Source: Deltaproteobacteria bacterium
Lineage (GTDB): Bacteria; Desulfobacterota; Desulfobacteria; Desulfobacterales; Desulfosarcinaceae
Assembly (NCBI GenBank): GCA_020444075.1
Contig: JAHLLR010000008.1
Coordinates: forward strand, 1 to 64,000
Reading direction: 5' to 3'
DNA length: 64,000 nucleotides
Positions 51,893 to 58,769 of this stretch are shown one piece after another. How positions within the stretch are numbered: the stretch's first letter is position 1; the number at the start of each line of letters is the position of its first letter. The notes below the pieces were generated by a model. The model made no database searches. It worked only from the letters and a program-made list of their open reading frames with translations, and was not told the origin of the DNA. The position numbers were made by a program, and so were the translations under genes.

Positions 51893-52744
51893 CTAATGTG
51901 GATTATCGACGGGTTTTCGCCAAACCGTGCAGATCCCGGCTGCGCTCAGCATGTTGACTGCGCCGGGCATGTGTACCCCGATCGTATCGACTCCGTGGGA
52001 ATCATCTCCCGGAACGATGTCAATACCCATTTCATTCGCCATTTTCAGGATTGGCGCCGACAGGTAAGGTTCGGTTTCACCTCTTGACAGCGGACGCAGG
52101 TTAAAATCCAGGATCAGGTTCAACCGCCTGACCAATTTGAGATTCCTGACGATTTTCTCCCATATCACCGGTTTGATCAGTTGTGACCGGTAGCCGGGAT
52201 CATATATGCGAATGATGTCCAGGTGGCCCACCACGCGTGGCTTCAACTCCCGAATCATTTCGTACTGCTGATCGAAATAGGCGGCATACAGCCCGTCCAG
52301 TCCGCCGCAGCAATCGGTCGCTTCGTCATAGCAGCGTTTGCTGTAGTCAAAGGGGATGTCTTTGACATGATGAACGGAACCCACCACATAGTCGGGAGAA
52401 AAGGTACGGATCAGCGCTTTTGCAAAGTCGAGGCTTCCGCTGTAATCTTCCGTTTCGAACCCGACATAGACCCGGATGTCGTTGGCATATTTTGCCTGAA
52501 GGTGACGGCAGGTGGTCATGTAATCGGCAAACCGTTCCTTAAGCGCTCTGGCGTCCAGTCCGGCACTTTTCTCTTCAGGATAGACAAAGGCATCCGACAC
52601 CGGTGGCATGTGTTCGGTGATGCCCACCCAGAGGAACCCGTGATCGATGTAGGCCTTGACAATTTCTTCGAGAGAATCTTTGGCATGGCCGCAGAACTGG
52701 CCGCTGTGGCCTCCGTGAACCGACACCAGATTCGGGAATTTCAT
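51893..52744 (-). CDS. HisK-type PHP histidinol-phosphatase
   Basis: A 283-residue PHP phosphatase. VHGGHSGQFCGHAKD supplies the first metal ligands, GITEHMPP the second site, VYVGFETEDY, VVGSVHHVKDIPFDY and VVGHLDIIRIY follow, and GDDSHGVDTIGVHM closes the metal cluster. Order and length fit HisK of the histidine pathway, which dephosphorylates L-histidinol phosphate. No other his gene is close. It follows the Nudix gene by about 115 nt on the same strand. A different small-phosphate substrate is possible. Confidence 0.83.
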   Translation of the reverse strand: MKFPNLVSVHGGHSGQFCGHAKDSLEEIVKAYIDHGFLWVGITEHMPPVSDAFVYPEEKSAGLDARALKERFADYMTTCRHLQAKYANDIRVYVGFETEDYSGSLDFAKALIRTFSPDYVVGSVHHVKDIPFDYSKRCYDEATDCCGGLDGLYAAYFDQQYEMIRELKPRVVGHLDIIRIYDPGYRSQLIKPVIWEKIVRNLKLVRRLNLILDFNLRPLSRGETEPYLSAPILKMANEMGIDIVPGDDSHGVDTIGVHMPGAVNMLSAAGICTVWRKPVDNPH

Positions 52745-52860: not shown

Positions 52861-53277
52861 CTATCCACCGGTAATGGTGAAGTTTTGCCGGAGCAGATTG
52901 ACGATGGGGAGGAAAAGGGGGGCAGGCATTTCGGACCATCGGAACCAGTCCCAGCGTTCGCATTTATCCGGCTCGTTGACCCGGGCATCGCCAGGCGTTG
53001 GATCGGCAATGACAAAAAGGGTTACGTAGTGTTTTTTCTCCTGCTCAAAGACGTCGTTGGTGAATGGCCCCAACCGCAGGTTCACGATGGACAGACCCGT
53101 TTCTTCAAAAAGTTCCCGCCGGGCACAGGCGTCGATGGATTCACCATATTCGAGATGGCCGCCGGGGAACTGCCAGGTGCCGGCACCGTGGGCATTTTTG
53201 CGTTTGCCCAGCAGCACCCGTCCATCGCGGACAACGATGACGGCCACTCCGATATAGGGTCTTTTTTTTTCGTTCAT
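52861..53277 (-). CDS. Nudix hydrolase
   Basis: A 138-residue pyrophosphohydrolase. The Nudix box is complete at about residues 38-60: GHLEYGESIDACARRELF followed by EETGL, with all metal-binding glutamates. VAVIVVRDGRVLLGKRKNAH before it and ERWDWFRWSEMP after it are typical of MutT/ADP-ribose-like members. Substrate unknown. It is downstream of the EtfA fusion gene by about 70 nt and may share its transcript. Confidence 0.9.
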   Translation of the reverse strand: MNEKKRPYIGVAVIVVRDGRVLLGKRKNAHGAGTWQFPGGHLEYGESIDACARRELFEETGLSIVNLRLGPFTNDVFEQEKKHYVTLFVIADPTPGDARVNEPDKCERWDWFRWSEMPAPLFLPIVNLLRQNFTITGG

Positions 53278-53347: not shown

Positions 53348-54973
53348 TCATATCGTATACAAAATCACCAGGCATCGCGTCATTTCCGCGGACAGGCTTT
53401 TTAGCTTGTGGGGGGTATTGGAATGGAAATGGATGGATTCCCCTTCTTTCAAGGTATGCACACGGTTGCCCAAGGTGAATTCCAATTCGCCTTCCATGAC
53501 GAAGATGAACTCTTCGCCTTCATGCTTGTAGGCCACCGGCTTGTGATCGTGGTGGGGCTCGATGGTTACCATGAAGGCCCTCAGGTGGTCATGCTCAGCG
53601 CCGGATGTAAGGGTTTCATAGGAGTAGTTACGGGTGCGGTTGACGTAGGCCTGAGTCCGTTGATCCCGGAACCGCTCTTTTTCTTCCTCTCGCAGAAATG
53701 TTCCCGGATCCACGCCGTAGGCGCCGGACAGGCGCAGGAAAAATGCCACCGGCGGAGAGATGTCACCGGACTCCACACCGGCAATGAACTCCGGCGTCTG
53801 GCCGGTCGTCTCGGCCAACTGTTCCTGCGACCAGCCCTGAGCCTCGCGCAGCGTCCTGATCTTCTCTCCACCGCTCCTCTTTTTCAATTGCACCGGCATG
53901 TCCGTGCAGATGTCGTCGGCCAATCGGCGCATGACCGTTTGCCGTATTCGCGAGATCAGCATGGGCAGAAAAGTCGGAGCGTCGGCAACCACACCGATGT
54001 CCGCCAGCCGAAAGATGGGTGCGGCAGGATCCCGATTGATGGCTACGATGGTTCCCGACCCCATGATGCCGGCGGTATACTGGATTGCCCCCGAGGTGCC
54101 GACGGAAAACAGCAGGTTCGGGCATACGGTTTTTCCCGTCTGGCCGATGAGCCGATCCTCTGCGATCCAGTGGTTGAGAACCGGCGGCCGTGTGGCGGCT
54201 GCCTGTCCGGCTAAGGCGGCAGCCAATTGCCTAACCTGTCCGAAGTTCTCCATGCTTCCCAGTCCGGCACCGCCCACTACAACAGTCTGGGCGCTTTCGA
54301 CATCGTTGCCGGTCTTCGGTGCCGGTCGGCTGGAAACCATCCGGATTCCTTTTGTTTCAGGAATGTCCGTCAGGGCCAGGCGTTCGATCCGGCCGCTGCG
54401 CGTCGTATCCTTTTCACCGGGTTCTCCGTGGGGTTGAACGGTGGCAAAACCGGTTCCGCGGCCGGCAGCATAGGTGATTTCGGCCAGGATCTCCCCGCCC
54501 CAGGCCGGACAGAGGCCAACGACGGTGCCGGCTTCTCCCGGTCGAAGATCCACACAGTCCGCTATCAGTCCCGCCCGCGCGGATGCTGCGGTCCGGGCGG
54601 CCAGGTCCCTGCCAAAATCGGTGAGGGGAAACAGCACCAGCCGGGGGCATTGTTCCTTGAATACCGGGGCCAGGGCATCGGCAAATAGATGGGGGGTCGG
54701 GGTTGAGAAACGGTCGTTCTCAAATAGATAGATGACATTCGCCCCCCAGGCGATGGCCTCCTCTTCCACGGTTCCCTGGATCGTACACGCCTCGTCTTCT
54801 GAAACGGTCAACAGACCGGTTCCCGCTGGTGTCAGGGAAAAATAGACGACCCGATCTCCCGTTTTTCGGGCCAGGTCCGCCGCCTTGGCCACCACCTTGA
54901 GACTCAAGTCCAGCAGATGGCGGTTCCGAAGATCGCCGAATACCCAGATATCGTTGGTTGTCGCCTTGACCAT
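53348..54973 (-). CDS. etfA: EtfA fused to XRE helix-turn-helix and cupin
   Basis: A 541-residue chimera. Residues 1-355 are the alpha subunit of electron transfer flavoprotein: VVGGAGLGSMENF, the FAD-binding RLIGQTGKTVCPNLLFSVGT plus SGAIQYTAG, and AINRDPAAPIFRLADIGVVA. Residues about 370-423 are an XRE/HTH_3 domain (IRTLREAQGWSQEQLAETTG), and about 445-541 a cupin (AYKHEGEEFIFVMEGELEF and HFHSNTPHKL), the layout of XRE-cupin regulators. There is no stop or frameshift between them. A redox flavoprotein that also binds DNA is implied. The gene is downstream of etfB and an acyl-CoA dehydrogenase. Confidence 0.9.
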   Translation of the reverse strand: MVKATTNDIWVFGDLRNRHLLDLSLKVVAKAADLARKTGDRVVYFSLTPAGTGLLTVSEDEACTIQGTVEEEAIAWGANVIYLFENDRFSTPTPHLFADALAPVFKEQCPRLVLFPLTDFGRDLAARTAASARAGLIADCVDLRPGEAGTVVGLCPAWGGEILAEITYAAGRGTGFATVQPHGEPGEKDTTRSGRIERLALTDIPETKGIRMVSSRPAPKTGNDVESAQTVVVGGAGLGSMENFGQVRQLAAALAGQAAATRPPVLNHWIAEDRLIGQTGKTVCPNLLFSVGTSGAIQYTAGIMGSGTIVAINRDPAAPIFRLADIGVVADAPTFLPMLISRIRQTVMRRLADDICTDMPVQLKKRSGGEKIRTLREAQGWSQEQLAETTGQTPEFIAGVESGDISPPVAFFLRLSGAYGVDPGTFLREEEKERFRDQRTQAYVNRTRNYSYETLTSGAEHDHLRAFMVTIEPHHDHKPVAYKHEGEEFIFVMEGELEFTLGNRVHTLKEGESIHFHSNTPHKLKSLSAEMTRCLVILYTI

Positions 54974-55064: not shown

Positions 55065-55835
55065 TCAACCAATCAAACCCGCATCCACCAGCTGTCTGAC
55101 CAGGTCATCGGCCTGCGTTGCCGGCGTCCCTTGGATCCACTGGCAGGTCCTCTTTTTTTTGACTGGCTTCATGGAAAGCACTCGCGTGGGCGAGCCGGCA
55201 TCTCCCACTTGATTCGGATCGAGGCCCACTTGCCCGATGGAAAGGGTTTCGACGGGCATTTCATCGAAAGCCGCGGCAATGCCTCCCAGCGCCGGGTCCC
55301 GTGGTGCGGCTGATGCCGGGTGGATGGTGAGTGCCGCGGGCAGGTCCAACTCGTAGGTTTCCAGGAATCCGTCCACCTTGCGTTCCACGGTTAGATGTCC
55401 GGGGAACCCGTCGATCTTGACAGCACCGGTCACCATGGGGATATCTAAGCGCACGGCGGTCTGGGGGCCGACCTGGCCGGTGTCGCTGTCCAGGGTGCGC
55501 GATCCGAACAGAATCAGGTCAAAAGGCGCCAAATAGTTCACCGCGGCGCTTAATGCCGTCGATGTCGCCAGGGTGTCGGAGCCGGCCAGGGCCGGATCGC
55601 ACAGCAGCACGGCGCGGTGGGCCCCGATGGCCAAAGCTTCCCGCAGGGTTGCGTTGGCGCTGGGCGGTCCCATGGTCAGAACGGTTACCGAACCGCCATG
55701 CTTTTCCTTCAATTGAAGGGCCACCTCCAGTGCCGGCCGGTCAAAGGGATTGAGGGCACATTTATCCGCCCTGCGGACAATTTTCCCCCGGGGTGCGTCG
55801 GTAACCACGGATTTGATGCAGACGATGATATGCAA
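55065..55835 (-). CDS. etfB: Electron transfer flavoprotein beta subunit
   Basis: A 256-residue EtfB: HIIVCIKSVVT at the start, NPFDRPALEVALQLKEKHGG, VTVLTMGPPSANATLREALA and LILFGSRTLDSDTGQVGPQT (AMP/FAD-site region). The protein accepts electrons from acyl-CoA dehydrogenase and passes them on as a dimer with EtfA. I choose TTG 55835: TAGGAG is 7 nt upstream and the family's sequence begins exactly there; an ATG further up (55883) would add 16 unlike residues. Confidence 0.92.
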   Translation of the reverse strand: MHIIVCIKSVVTDAPRGKIVRRADKCALNPFDRPALEVALQLKEKHGGSVTVLTMGPPSANATLREALAIGAHRAVLLCDPALAGSDTLATSTALSAAVNYLAPFDLILFGSRTLDSDTGQVGPQTAVRLDIPMVTGAVKIDGFPGHLTVERKVDGFLETYELDLPAALTIHPASAAPRDPALGGIAAAFDEMPVETLSIGQVGLDPNQVGDAGSPTRVLSMKPVKKKRTCQWIQGTPATQADDLVRQLVDAGLIG

Positions 55836-55902
55836 TGGTGGGCTCCTAAGGCCGGTTGCTTTTAACATCCGGATCAACTTCACGCATACGGTTTAACGCA
55901 AA

Positions 55903-56020
55903 AGGGTTCAAGGATTCGAGGGGTCAAGGGTTCGAGAGAAAACCAATACGAAATAAAACCCATTTATATGCATGCCTGCCATTTCCTTTGGATCCTTGGC
56001 CCCTGGAATCCTTGAACCCT
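55903..56020. repeat. Imperfect 27-bp inverted repeat between acyl-CoA dehydrogenase and etfB
   Basis: The arm 55903-55929 (AGGGTTCAAGGATTCGAGG...) pairs with 55994-56020 with only two mismatches over 27 bases, enclosing 64 bases that themselves contain another GGTTCGAG-like copy. It looks like a mobile or dispersed intergenic element of the 'gggttcaaggattc' type rather than a terminator; it has no T-run on the minus strand. Confidence 0.72.
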
Positions 56021-56027
56021 CTGGTTC

Positions 56028-57170
56028 TTATTCCTCCAATACGCTTTTGGCAATGACCATGCGATGAATCTCCGAAGTGCCTTCATAGATACGGGTGACC
56101 CGTGCATCCCGGTAGTAGCGCTCCACTGGGTAGGACTTGCTGTATCCATAGCCGCCGTGGATCTGGACTGCCATATCCGTCACGCGGGTGGCCGTTTCGG
56201 AGGCGAACAGCTTGGCCATGGCCGACTCCTTTGAAAAGGGCAGACGCCTGTCTTTCAGTGCCGCAGCCCGATAAACCATGAGCCGGGCGGCATCCACCCC
56301 GGTGGCCATGTCGGCGATCATGGTCTGGATCGCCTGGTGACGTTCGATGGGGACTCCGAACTGCTGCCGCTGCCGGGCATAGCGTACCGCTTCTTCCAGA
56401 GCCGCCTGGGCAATCCCTACCGCCTGGGCGCCGATTCCCATGCGCCCGGTGTCCAGCGCGGCCAGGCCTATTTTAAGGCCCACGCCTTCCCGGGCCAACA
56501 GGTTTGTTCTGGGCACCCGGCAGTCGTTTAGGCGGATGGAGCAGACCGGGTTGGCCCGCATGCCGCAAAGGTCTTCCAGGTCTCCCACGACAAAACCGTC
56601 TGTACCCCGCTCGGCCACCACCACGCTGATGCCCCGTCGTCCCGCCGCCGGATCCGTTCGGCAGAAGATCAGGCAGACGTCGGCGATGCCGCCGTTGGTT
56701 ACAAAAACTTTATTGGCGTTGACCACGTAAGTATCCCCATCGGACCGAGCCGTGGCTTCGATTCCGCCGGCATCGGAGCCGGCATTGGGCTCGGTGAGGC
56801 AGAAAGCGCCGATTTTTTCTCCCCGGGCCAGGGGAGGAACCCATTGGTCGATCTGCGCCTGGCTGCCGAAGGCCATGATGGGGTAGACGGCTACGCTGTT
56901 GTGGACGGAGACGCATAGGCCGATGGCGGCGCTGACCCTAGAAATTTCTTCGATGGCGATGGCATAGCTGACGGCGTCCAGGCCGGCGCCTCCCAGCGTT
57001 TTTGGGACCTGGATTCCGAAATAACCCAGCGCACCCATTTTTTCGATCACTTCCCAGGGGAAGCGGGCCTCCTGATCAATCTGCGCGGCAATCGGTCGAA
57101 GCTCCCGATCGCAGAACCGGCGTACTGACTGCCGAAGGGTGCGATGTTTTTCTTCCAGCAGCATTTCCAT
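56028..57170 (-). CDS. Acyl-CoA dehydrogenase
   Basis: A 381-residue FAD enzyme oxidising acyl-CoA and reducing Etf[19 protein letters not shown] is the ACAD motif, [14 protein letters not shown] follows, [13 protein letters not shown] and [20 protein letters not shown] are the usual C-terminal boxes, and the catalytic Glu is in [22 protein letters not shown] 57170 is preferred over TTG 57194 for family length. It leads the acd-etfB-etfA run and so probably donates electrons to this Etf. Chain-length class unclear; short to medium chain is typical of this sort. Confidence 0.93.
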
Positions 57171-57345
57171 AAGATGTCTGATCCTAGTTGACAATCCTTG
57201 GGTTGATGGACGCTGTTGCAGCTATCAGAATTTGCCGGGTGCGTCAATGATCCCCCATCGGCCGACAGATAAATTTCAAATTGAAGCAGCTGGCAAATGG
57301 TGATACCACCGGTTTGGCGCAGTGGCACGCACCGGCTGGGAGATC

Positions 57346-57798
57346 ATGAAAAATCAAACCGCAATAACCCGAAAATATCCTGACGCACCCCGACCGGCGG
57401 TGGGAGCGGTGGTTTTCAAGGACGATACCGTGCTGCTGGTTCTGCGAGGCAATTCTCCCTCCCGGGGCATGTGGGCTATCCCCGGCGGTAGTGTGCGTCT
57501 GGGTGAAACGCTTCAGGCCGCTGCCGAACGGGAGATTCTCGAGGAGACCGGCGTGGTGATCCGGGCTGGGGACCCGATTCTTGTCTTTGATGCCATTGAA
57601 CGCGACAATCGCGGCGCGGTGCGGTTTCATTACGTGATCGTGGATCTGACTGCCGACTATGTGAGCGGTGTGCCCCGGGCGGGAGACGATGCCGCTGATG
57701 CCAGGTGGATAAGGGAATCGGAGTTGGGGCGGTTGCCGGTGAATCCTGCCACCCGTCGCCTGCTTGCGGAAAAATTCAATTTTGGAAGACAGGCCTGA
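57346..57798 (+). CDS. Nudix hydrolase
   Basis: A 150-residue Nudix protein. The box GGSVRLGETLQAAAEREILE followed by ETGVVI is complete, and AVVFKDDTVLLVLRGNSPSR plus DLTADYVSGVPRAGDDAAD are typical of the ADP-ribose/ADP-sugar pyrophosphatase-like side of the family. GGGAG precedes ATG 57346. It is divergent from the acyl-CoA dehydrogenase and overlaps the next gene by one base (TGATG). Confidence 0.91.
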   Translation: MKNQTAITRKYPDAPRPAVGAVVFKDDTVLLVLRGNSPSRGMWAIPGGSVRLGETLQAAAEREILEETGVVIRAGDPILVFDAIERDNRGAVRFHYVIVDLTADYVSGVPRAGDDAADARWIRESELGRLPVNPATRRLLAEKFNFGRQA

Positions 57799-58769
57799 TG
57801 ACAGCCATTACTGACAACGACAAAGACCGGATGCGGCAATGGGGCAGGGACGGTGACGGCGACATTAACCTTCGATATGCGACCACCGGTCATCCGATGG
57901 ATGCAAGGTTCCAAGCCTTTGTCGACCAGGTGGTCAATCTGGTACCCCGTGTCCGGACGAAAAAAGACGGCGATGCGATGGTTTCCCTGCCCACCCTGTT
58001 CATCGGCAGCCATGTGGGCTATCAGGCCCTGCCTGTGGGCCGGGAACTGGTGCCGTTTCTGGCTGTATTGAGGGATGACAGCGCGTTTGCGGATCGCATC
58101 GCCCCGGATGTGCGGCAGCGGTTGGCACAGCTGCGAGCCCCGTCCCTGGTCAAGGTGTACATCACCCCCCACTGCCCCTTCTGTCCGACCGCCGTTTCCG
58201 TTCTGCTGGGCCTTGCCGGCTGCAGCGACCGGGTCCGGGTAACCGTCATCGACGGTGAGCTGTTTCCTGACGCAGCCCAAAAGGACCGCGTCACTGCAGC
58301 ACCCACGGTGATCCTGGACGACCAGTTCCGCTGGACCGGATCTGTGGATGCCGGTGAGCTGGTCACCCTGATGCTGGACCGGGATCCGGTCGGCCTGGGT
58401 GCCGAGGCCCTGAGAAGCATGATCGAAGAGGGCGATGCCGAAGGCGTGGCCAGGATGATGGCCGAACGCGGAAAGATTTTTCCCGCCTTTGTCGACCTGC
58501 TGGTCCATCCGCGGTGGTCCGTTCGGTTGGGCGCCATGGTGTCATTCGAAACCCTGGCAGGGTTTGCTCCGGGGCTTGCCGCCGGGCTTGTCGACCCGTT
58601 GATGACGCTTTTTGCGGATGTGGATGACATGGTCAAAGGGGATCTGATTCATGTGATAGGAGAGTCGGGAAATAAGGCGGCACTGCCGTTTTTATCGACC
58701 GTGGCCACGGGGGACTACGACGAGGAAGTTCGATCGGCAGCCGTGGAAGCCATCGAAAAACTCAACTGA
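57798..58769 (+). CDS. Thioredoxin-fold + HEAT-like protein
   Basis: A 323-residue protein. Residues about 110-205 are a glutaredoxin/thioredoxin-fold segment with the redox pair in YITPHCPFCPTAVS and a cis-Pro region TAAPTVILDDQF. Residues about 235-323 read as helical HEAT-like repeats (LLVHPRWSVRLGAMVSFETL and VRSAAVEAIEKL). The N-terminal 100 residues are not recognised. Translation starts at ATG 57798 inside the Nudix stop, so the two are coupled. Possibly a thiol oxidoreductase acting in a complex; function unknown. Confidence 0.78.
   Translation: MTAITDNDKDRMRQWGRDGDGDINLRYATTGHPMDARFQAFVDQVVNLVPRVRTKKDGDAMVSLPTLFIGSHVGYQALPVGRELVPFLAVLRDDSAFADRIAPDVRQRLAQLRAPSLVKVYITPHCPFCPTAVSVLLGLAGCSDRVRVTVIDGELFPDAAQKDRVTAAPTVILDDQFRWTGSVDAGELVTLMLDRDPVGLGAEALRSMIEEGDAEGVARMMAERGKIFPAFVDLLVHPRWSVRLGAMVSFETLAGFAPGLAAGLVDPLMTLFADVDDMVKGDLIHVIGESGNKAALPFLSTVATGDYDEEVRSAAVEAIEKLN

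Follow-up and report, generated by a model that had tools for sequence, protein, structure and literature searches.

The locus and its fused gene

Within a 64,000-nucleotide stretch of a Desulfosarcinaceae genome (Deltaproteobacteria bacterium, assembly GCA_020444075.1, contig JAHLLR010000008.1, positions 1 to 64,000 of the forward strand, hereafter the window), a single gene encodes the alpha subunit of an electron transfer flavoprotein (ETF), EtfA, joined to a regulator module of the XRE-cupin type. The gene occupies 53348-54973 on the minus strand and comprises 541 codons between an ATG start and a TGA stop. A search of this frame for an internal stop found none, in agreement with an earlier annotation made from the sequence of the window (the original prediction), which had proposed that EtfA, an XRE helix-turn-helix (HTH) and a cupin are encoded in one frame. 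Two further genes on the same strand lie upstream and complete an acd-etfB-etfA cassette. The partner subunit is encoded by etfB (55065-55835), which has an apparent TTG start and was recognized by a Pfam ETF match and by its relatives 5ol2_B and 4kpu_B in the PDB, and acd (56028-57170) encodes an acyl-CoA dehydrogenase that Pfam and counts of conserved residues point to as a member of a distinct subfamily.

Along the fusion the order of domains is EtfA, a short loose linker, the XRE HTH and a Cupin_2 domain, with all four Pfam matches scoring over their gathering thresholds. The N-terminal domain of EtfA (ETF, residues 10-203, 54365-54946 on the minus strand, as are all features of the fusion; E = 9.9e-18) and its FAD-binding domain (ETF_alpha, residues 224-303, 54065-54304; E = 6.4e-25) identify the first half, by domain content, as an electron transfer flavoprotein alpha subunit, and its predicted structure matched 4kpu_A in a fold search. 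The C-terminus of EtfA had originally been placed at INRDPAAPIFRLADIG (about residues 313-328); this is too early, as the EtfA fold continues to a long last helix, located by an AlphaFold2 model and the alignment at residues 332-356 (53906-53980). The flexible linker follows (about residues 357-367, 53873-53905); the predicted local distance difference test score (pLDDT) falls below 50 at residues 358-365, and residues 346-368 have the lowest column conservation, 0.45, in the alignment of fused proteins. Past the linker the model contains the helices of the XRE (Cro/C1) HTH (residues 368-427, 53693-53872; HTH_3 match at 372-424, E = 3.3e-11; third helix at 394-402), a connecting helix (429-446) and then a cupin barrel, the putative sensor (residues 450-541, 53351-53626; Cupin_2 match at 468-537, E = 7.2e-17), which fold matches also support. 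By its domains, HTH_3 and then Cupin_2, the second half is an XRE-cupin regulator with the architecture of the stand-alone repressors, as had been recognized, and, judged from domains and frame, a flavoprotein and a DNA-binding domain are present in one chain. The full-length model, built from 48 sequences (the window's protein and those of 47 of the 57 loci described below), has a mean pLDDT of 81.3 and a predicted template modeling score (pTM) of 0.56, so the relative placing of its two halves is uninformative; a separate model of the C-terminal part has a mean pLDDT of 78.2 and a pTM of 0.49.

Spread and origin of the fusion

The fusion is a genuine, conserved single frame that occurs in many sulfate-reducing and related bacteria. 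Chance or artefact is excluded because a match to both halves recurs in 10 of the 12 other genomes of the same genus; several further genomes of the family, in a set of 60 that includes the window's own, also carry it. An assembly or frame error could draw on two relatives in which the frame is broken, one by an in-frame TAA near the C-terminal end (G010) and the other near residue 271, inside EtfA (G022), but the frame is unbroken in all four same-genus genomes that consist of one or two contigs (G001, G003, G005 and G008) and in tens of other assemblies, and we give this explanation practically no weight. A third match, in G012, stops at residue 534. None of these irregularities lies at the junction of EtfA and HTH, where the original prediction had seen the risk of a hidden stop and where the search for one, or for a frame error, found neither.

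Related genomes contain the same fusion well beyond the genus. Of 389 genomes sampled from the order, 54 gave a match at E ≤ 1e-100, and 52 of these (G010 included) span both halves in one frame, although the cut-off favours full-length matches, so that 52 of 54 is not an unbiased rate; the two remaining matches are the broken G022 and a contig-end piece in G316. A class sample, with 55 of 389 genomes matching, nearly repeats that of the order. Among 395 genomes sampled across the phylum there are 23 matches, four within the order and 19 beyond the class, and 18 of these 19 are fused; the unfused member is locus L124 of genome G697. Orthologues are thus mostly fused, and not always encoded as two proteins, the outcome that would have spoken against the original prediction. 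A pattern-based scan restricted to one genome per species yielded 57 loci; most come from Desulfosarcina, Desulfatitalea and further Desulfobacterales or deltaproteobacterial assemblies, and a few carry the unconfirmed labels Nitrospirota, Myxococcota, Proteobacteria or Syntrophaceae. As far as we found, the fusion is undescribed: searches of an open-access library, which lacks most subscription journals, revealed no description of an EtfA fused to a transcription factor, and in the accessible parts of two papers the word cupin (PMC5109826, on the substrate-specific ETFs of Desulfococcus multivorans) and the word fused (PMC6085437) do not occur.

The persistence of the joined frame also bears on whether the halves work as one protein. 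They might instead act apart, through cleavage of the linker or an internal start for the regulator, and the low pLDDT and poor conservation of the linker region, the least conserved stretch of the protein, would suit such an arrangement, as would the in-frame Met often present where the EtfA helix ends. An RBS-like (ribosome-binding-site-like) sequence, however, precedes just 6 of 78 internal Met positions, which leaves a separately started regulator with little support, and the in-frame joining is kept phylum-wide, whereas joining would need no selection if the halves parted. We therefore consider separate action very improbable.

The fused gene keeps its company as well as its frame. Among the 57 loci, 54 have a match to EtfA and 53 of these show the regulator half (in L075 the cassette is present, but a contig end cuts it before the regulator half). 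The complete acd-etfB-etfA::XRE-cupin cassette, defined by an upstream etfB no more than 600 bases and an upstream acd no more than 2500 bases from etfA, occurs in 48 of the 54, so that the originally proposed tie of the fusion to acd-etfBA is borne out. Considered singly, etfB stands upstream of etfA in 51 of the 54 loci. Two of the six exceptions, L023 and L042, have too little upstream DNA to tell; the other four are taken up below. The outer neighbours of the cassette differ from clade to clade. Mean identity to the window's proteins is 77.1% for Acd (47 loci) and 55.0% for EtfB (50 loci), and within the fusion it is 66.5% for the XRE-cupin half versus 51.3% for the EtfA half (53 loci). 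The regulator half is the better conserved of the two in all 53 loci, which is not expected of a passenger domain and reveals strong constraint.

The history of the fusion was traced in separate trees of its halves, one with 56 fused and 23 unfused EtfA sequences (near-copies removed at 75% identity) and one with 52 fused and 19 stand-alone XRE-cupin sequences (near-copies removed at 85% identity). The trees took no segment that contained a stop or was shorter than 250 residues for EtfA or 140 for XRE-cupin, and L126_E0 (broken frame) and L071_X0 and L072_X0 (contig-end cuts) were excluded. In the XRE-cupin tree one change of state is enough (SH-aLRT 95), and in the EtfA tree the fused state needs three changes. 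Nearest to the fused EtfA clade among unfused proteins is a group of eight, encoded in acd-etfB-etfA cassettes of the same gene order (L128, L129, L138, L142-L144, L146 and L147) whose acd is about 60% identical to that of the fused cassettes. These sister cassettes differ in that no XRE-cupin is seen in the DNA at hand. L124 lies inside the fused EtfA clade and keeps the clade's Cys155 and Tyr299, so that its unfused state is most likely the result of a loss of the regulator. The most likely course of events, with which the trees agree, is a single ancient fusion followed by one or more losses; the fused L123 counts against it, as it falls outside the main fused EtfA clade, on a long branch and with unsure placement, and this position may reflect a second fusion.

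The electron-carrier half

The residues of EtfA that we take to contact FAD are well kept in the fused proteins: R262 in 55 of 56 sequences, and T279, S294 and Q298 in all 56. Other positions have changed. The usual FAD-site His (Y299 in the window's protein) is Tyr in 53 and Phe in 3 of the 56, versus 21 of 23 unfused EtfA sequences, all eight sister cassettes among them, that keep the His; the Arg of the GGRG motif is Ala in 49 of 56. According to the accessible part of PMC10734219, in which the subunit names are swapped relative to the usage of EtfA and EtfB here, the Thermotoga enzyme cannot bifurcate without the Arg of its RPxFGG motif. At the equivalent position (C155 in the window's protein) fused EtfA has Cys in 46, Ser in 9 and Val in 1 of 56 sequences, and Arg in none, whereas the sister cassettes have Ala (8 of 8) and the other unfused EtfA mostly Arg (12 of 15). 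Because this Arg is missing (0 of 56), which argues against a bifurcating ETF, we predict that the fused ETF is probably non-bifurcating. It differs in this respect from the closest solved relatives of both its subunits, the bifurcating Etf of A. fermentans (4kpu), C. difficile (5ol2), A. woodii (6fah) and T. maritima (7koe). In EtfB, the small-subunit motif GxxSPTxV is largely retained (S in 50, P in 40, T in 50 and V in 42 of 51 sequences), and the GV of the RxGV motif is not kept. EtfB of the fused cassettes also has Cys231 in 49 of 51 sequences, versus Asn in 8 of 8 sister cassettes.

The altered residues raise the question of what the ETF part is for. If the protein were first of all a redox sensor, its ETF part, an inefficient carrier, would read the ratio of acyl-CoA to product via Acd and pass the state of the FAD on to the HTH. 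The replacement of the FAD-site His in 56 of 56 sequences and of the GGRG Arg, the Cys or Ser at position 155 in 55 of 56, and an EtfB that in the rows inspected lacks an N-terminal hairpin of several residues would all be in keeping with such a role, but the FAD contacts described above are retained, and acd and etfB remain attached, as a working carrier would need. We regard a sensor of this kind as quite improbable.

The dehydrogenase of the cassette has features of its own. H278, R360 and H369 of Acd are each present in all 39 fused cassettes compared and seldom in the relatives compared. The conserved Glu, presumably the catalytic base, is likewise kept in 39 of 39, and R360 precedes it by three residues. 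This pattern suggests that Acd of the fused cassettes forms a distinct subfamily, whose conserved residues point to a distinct substrate. Substrate-specific ETFs have been described in Desulfococcus multivorans, according to the accessible part of PMC5109826.

The regulator half, its candidate control region and a proposed feedback loop

Within the HTH, the third-helix consensus is QTPEFI in the fused proteins, in which it is conserved, and FSIDYL in the stand-alone ones. In the cupin, H477, H484 and E488 are invariant among the fused proteins and H522 is present in 50 of 51 (the remaining row has a gap; L123_X0 was left out of all column counts of fused proteins), and the stand-alone XRE-cupin proteins share all four residues (18 or 19 of 19); this set of residues appears fit for a metal cupin sensor. 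The best cupin fold match of the C-terminal model is an XRE-family regulator (6b8w; Z = 15.7, 1.6 Å over 93 residues), followed by the HTH_3 regulator 1y9q of Vibrio cholerae (Z = 14.6, 2.0 Å over 94 residues). The nearest kin of the regulator half, at 35-49% identity among the matches listed, are stand-alone XRE-cupin proteins encoded beside acd in the same bacteria. Among loci picked from these matches, 22 of 24 (4 of 4 and 18 of 20) have another acd immediately downstream of the stand-alone gene, and the window's own genome contains one such gene beside acd (L127). Modules of this kind thus keep company with acyl-CoA dehydrogenase genes even where no fusion exists; the stand-alone kin differ in being unfused, in their third-helix residues and in the acd that they accompany (43-47% identity). 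In Pseudomonas aeruginosa, according to the accessible part of PMC7901475, XRE-cupin proteins act locally to repress metabolic genes that adjoin their own, and their binding sites, where these could be derived, are palindromic. The module studied here shares with PsdR, PauR and ErfA the order HTH_3 and Cupin_2 and a place beside genes for metabolic enzymes; unlike those stand-alone regulators, it forms the C-terminal third of the fused EtfA chain and has an acidic HTH.

A site for such a regulator is best sought before acd, where we predict a control region at 57212-57305. It holds a promoter box for acd (57223-57248, minus strand), composed of TTGACG, 17 bases and TAGCTG, with an extended -10 TG and with AAATTC at the end of the spacer, and an inverted twin of this box (57280-57305, plus strand) at the divergent NUDIX hydrolase gene; the twin makes the region a candidate shared operator. 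Directly downstream of the acd -10 element lies the short inverted repeat GCTGCAACAGC (57212-57222), which the alignment reveals to be common to some Desulfosarcina and which is a weak operator candidate, and the sequence CAATTTGAAATTG of Desulfosarcina is found on the divergent gene's side of the region upstream of acd. The pattern TTGAC[TG]-N17-TA with the extended -10 TG and the conserved AAATTC occurs in 18 of 41 fused loci (46 upstream regions minus four near-identical ones and one too short), versus a mean of 0.1 and a maximum of 2 in 200 shuffles. In 16 of the 18 its distance upstream of acd is 77-103 bases and in L025 and L034 about 260 bases, and the pattern is missing from all eight unfused sister cassettes. 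A pattern built from box and twin matches nowhere else in the genome at up to two mismatches (the window's copies match by construction) and finds two places at three mismatches, as compared to one in a reversed control.

The original prediction had looked for the operator also within 55836-56027, between acd and etfB. That proposal did not hold up, since much of this gap is a dispersed inverted repeat (55902-56020, with 39-nucleotide arms and an internal period of 8 nucleotides) that has 27 near-matches in the genome at three or fewer mismatches, two of them its own arms, versus none in a reversed control; a stricter pattern gave three genomic matches and no control match. The region upstream of the acd start at 57170, with its promoter box conserved in part of the family, is the better candidate. 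One near-match of the repeat lies just ahead of a stand-alone XRE-cupin gene, on contig C167. A motif found before the stand-alone XRE-cupin genes was rejected as an operator, as it belongs to the coding sequence at the end of the hydroxyacyl-CoA dehydrogenase gene upstream.

Electron transfer flavoproteins are usually viewed as passive carriers. The explanation of the fusion that we favour, with a confidence a little better than even, is that of an autogenous regulator resembling PutA, built into a dedicated and probably non-bifurcating ETF, that represses its own acd-etfBA promoter while the cupin senses a metabolite. Acd would oxidise (or reduce) one particular acyl-CoA and exchange electrons with the FAD of EtfAB, and the C-terminal XRE-cupin of EtfA would pair with that of a second copy and bind the promoter before acd. 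The cassette would thus be held down until the cupin binds a metabolite of the pathway, in a loop like that of PutA. Both the repression of the own promoter and the sensing by the cupin are proposed by analogy with the XRE-cupin family. The likeness to PutA concerns the way of working and no sequence relation is claimed: trifunctional PutA likewise joins a catabolic flavoprotein to a domain that binds DNA and represses the operon encoding it, whereas the flavoprotein of the fusion is a subunit of an electron carrier and bears an XRE HTH at its C-terminus together with a separate cupin sensor. In the accessible part of PMC5293562, PutA is described as an autogenous repressor that switches with proline and the state of its flavin, and a ribbon-helix-helix domain added to a PutA without one conferred DNA binding, so that fusions of this type can work modularly.

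Several observations weigh against this explanation. Four loci break the cassette rule: L036 and L041 keep etfB with no acd seen, in L064 the 1284 bases upstream contain no etfB, and neither gene is seen in L065. The promoter box is absent from 23 of the 41 fused loci and was found in 6 of 33 in a second, overlapping set, five of the six having already been counted; Desulfatitalea has a different promoter, and the pattern was written after the alignments had been viewed and compared with shuffles of single letters. Searches for palindromic motifs before acd scored above shuffles (49.6 versus 22.5 and 24.1; 64.4 versus 35.0 and 33.8), and the motifs overlap promoter elements and are not clear palindromes, so that a palindromic operator is not established there. 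The HTH, moreover, is acidic, with a net charge of -4 in the window's protein and a mean of -1.4 in the fused as compared to +1.3 in the stand-alone proteins, which argues against tight DNA binding.

The acidic HTH and the want of an established operator would be explained if the XRE-cupin did not bind DNA at all and served the ETF as a dimerisation and metal-cupin module, ligand-sensing or catalytic like HppE. HppE is an HTH-cupin protein, an epoxidase. Its entries fill ranks 24-36 and 38-40 of the fold matches but for one, a profile match to it is weak (4.6e-6), and H484, E488 and H522 would fit a 2-His-1-Glu site, which we take to be the metal triad of HppE. However, the profile match to 1y9q, annotated as a transcriptional regulator, is better (9.7e-17), as is its fold match (Z = 14.6 versus 12.3), and third-helix segment 392-401 is conserved like the FAD domain (0.77 versus 0.78) and consistently unlike the stand-alone form. 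We judge a module without DNA binding to be unlikely.

The original prediction had further supposed that the redox state of the flavin could govern transcription. We can only guess that DNA binding changes, through the joining helix, with the redox state of the FAD or when the FAD domain docks on Acd. The carrier would then be its own redox-gated repressor, and flux through Acd would set the transcription of both Acd and carrier: electrons from Acd would reduce the FAD carried by the swinging EtfA domain, the docking or domain motion would pass via the last helix to the XRE-cupin, the chain would leave the acd promoter, and the cupin would add a metabolite check. In PutA, reduction of the flavin lowers affinity for DNA only about 2-fold and mainly increases membrane binding (PMC5293562, accessible part). 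Such redox gating is doubtful in our view, and the original interpretation is only partly supported. Should a regulatory role of either kind prove true, a carrier joined to a transcription factor would report on the electrons that flow through it, and the known flavoproteins that control their own genes would gain an electron carrier among them. The fusion would also offer a concrete case, open to assay, of how each acyl-CoA dehydrogenase stays paired with its ETF in sulfate reducers and related anaerobes that possess many of both in parallel, and it marks an acyl-CoA dehydrogenase subfamily with conserved residues of its own.

Several genes lie close to the fused cassettes. In the window, NUDIX hydrolase genes flank the cassette on either side, one divergent and upstream (57322-57798, plus strand) and one downstream on the same strand (52861-53277, minus strand), the latter followed by a gene for a HisJ-like PHP-domain protein (51893-52744), and similar neighbours occur in several other Desulfosarcina loci. 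Adjoining the divergent NUDIX gene, 57705-58769 (plus strand) encodes a protein with a thioredoxin-like domain and HEAT repeats. Two fusion loci, L063 (5371-5880) and L065 (652-1161), also have a stand-alone XRE-cupin gene nearby on the opposite strand.
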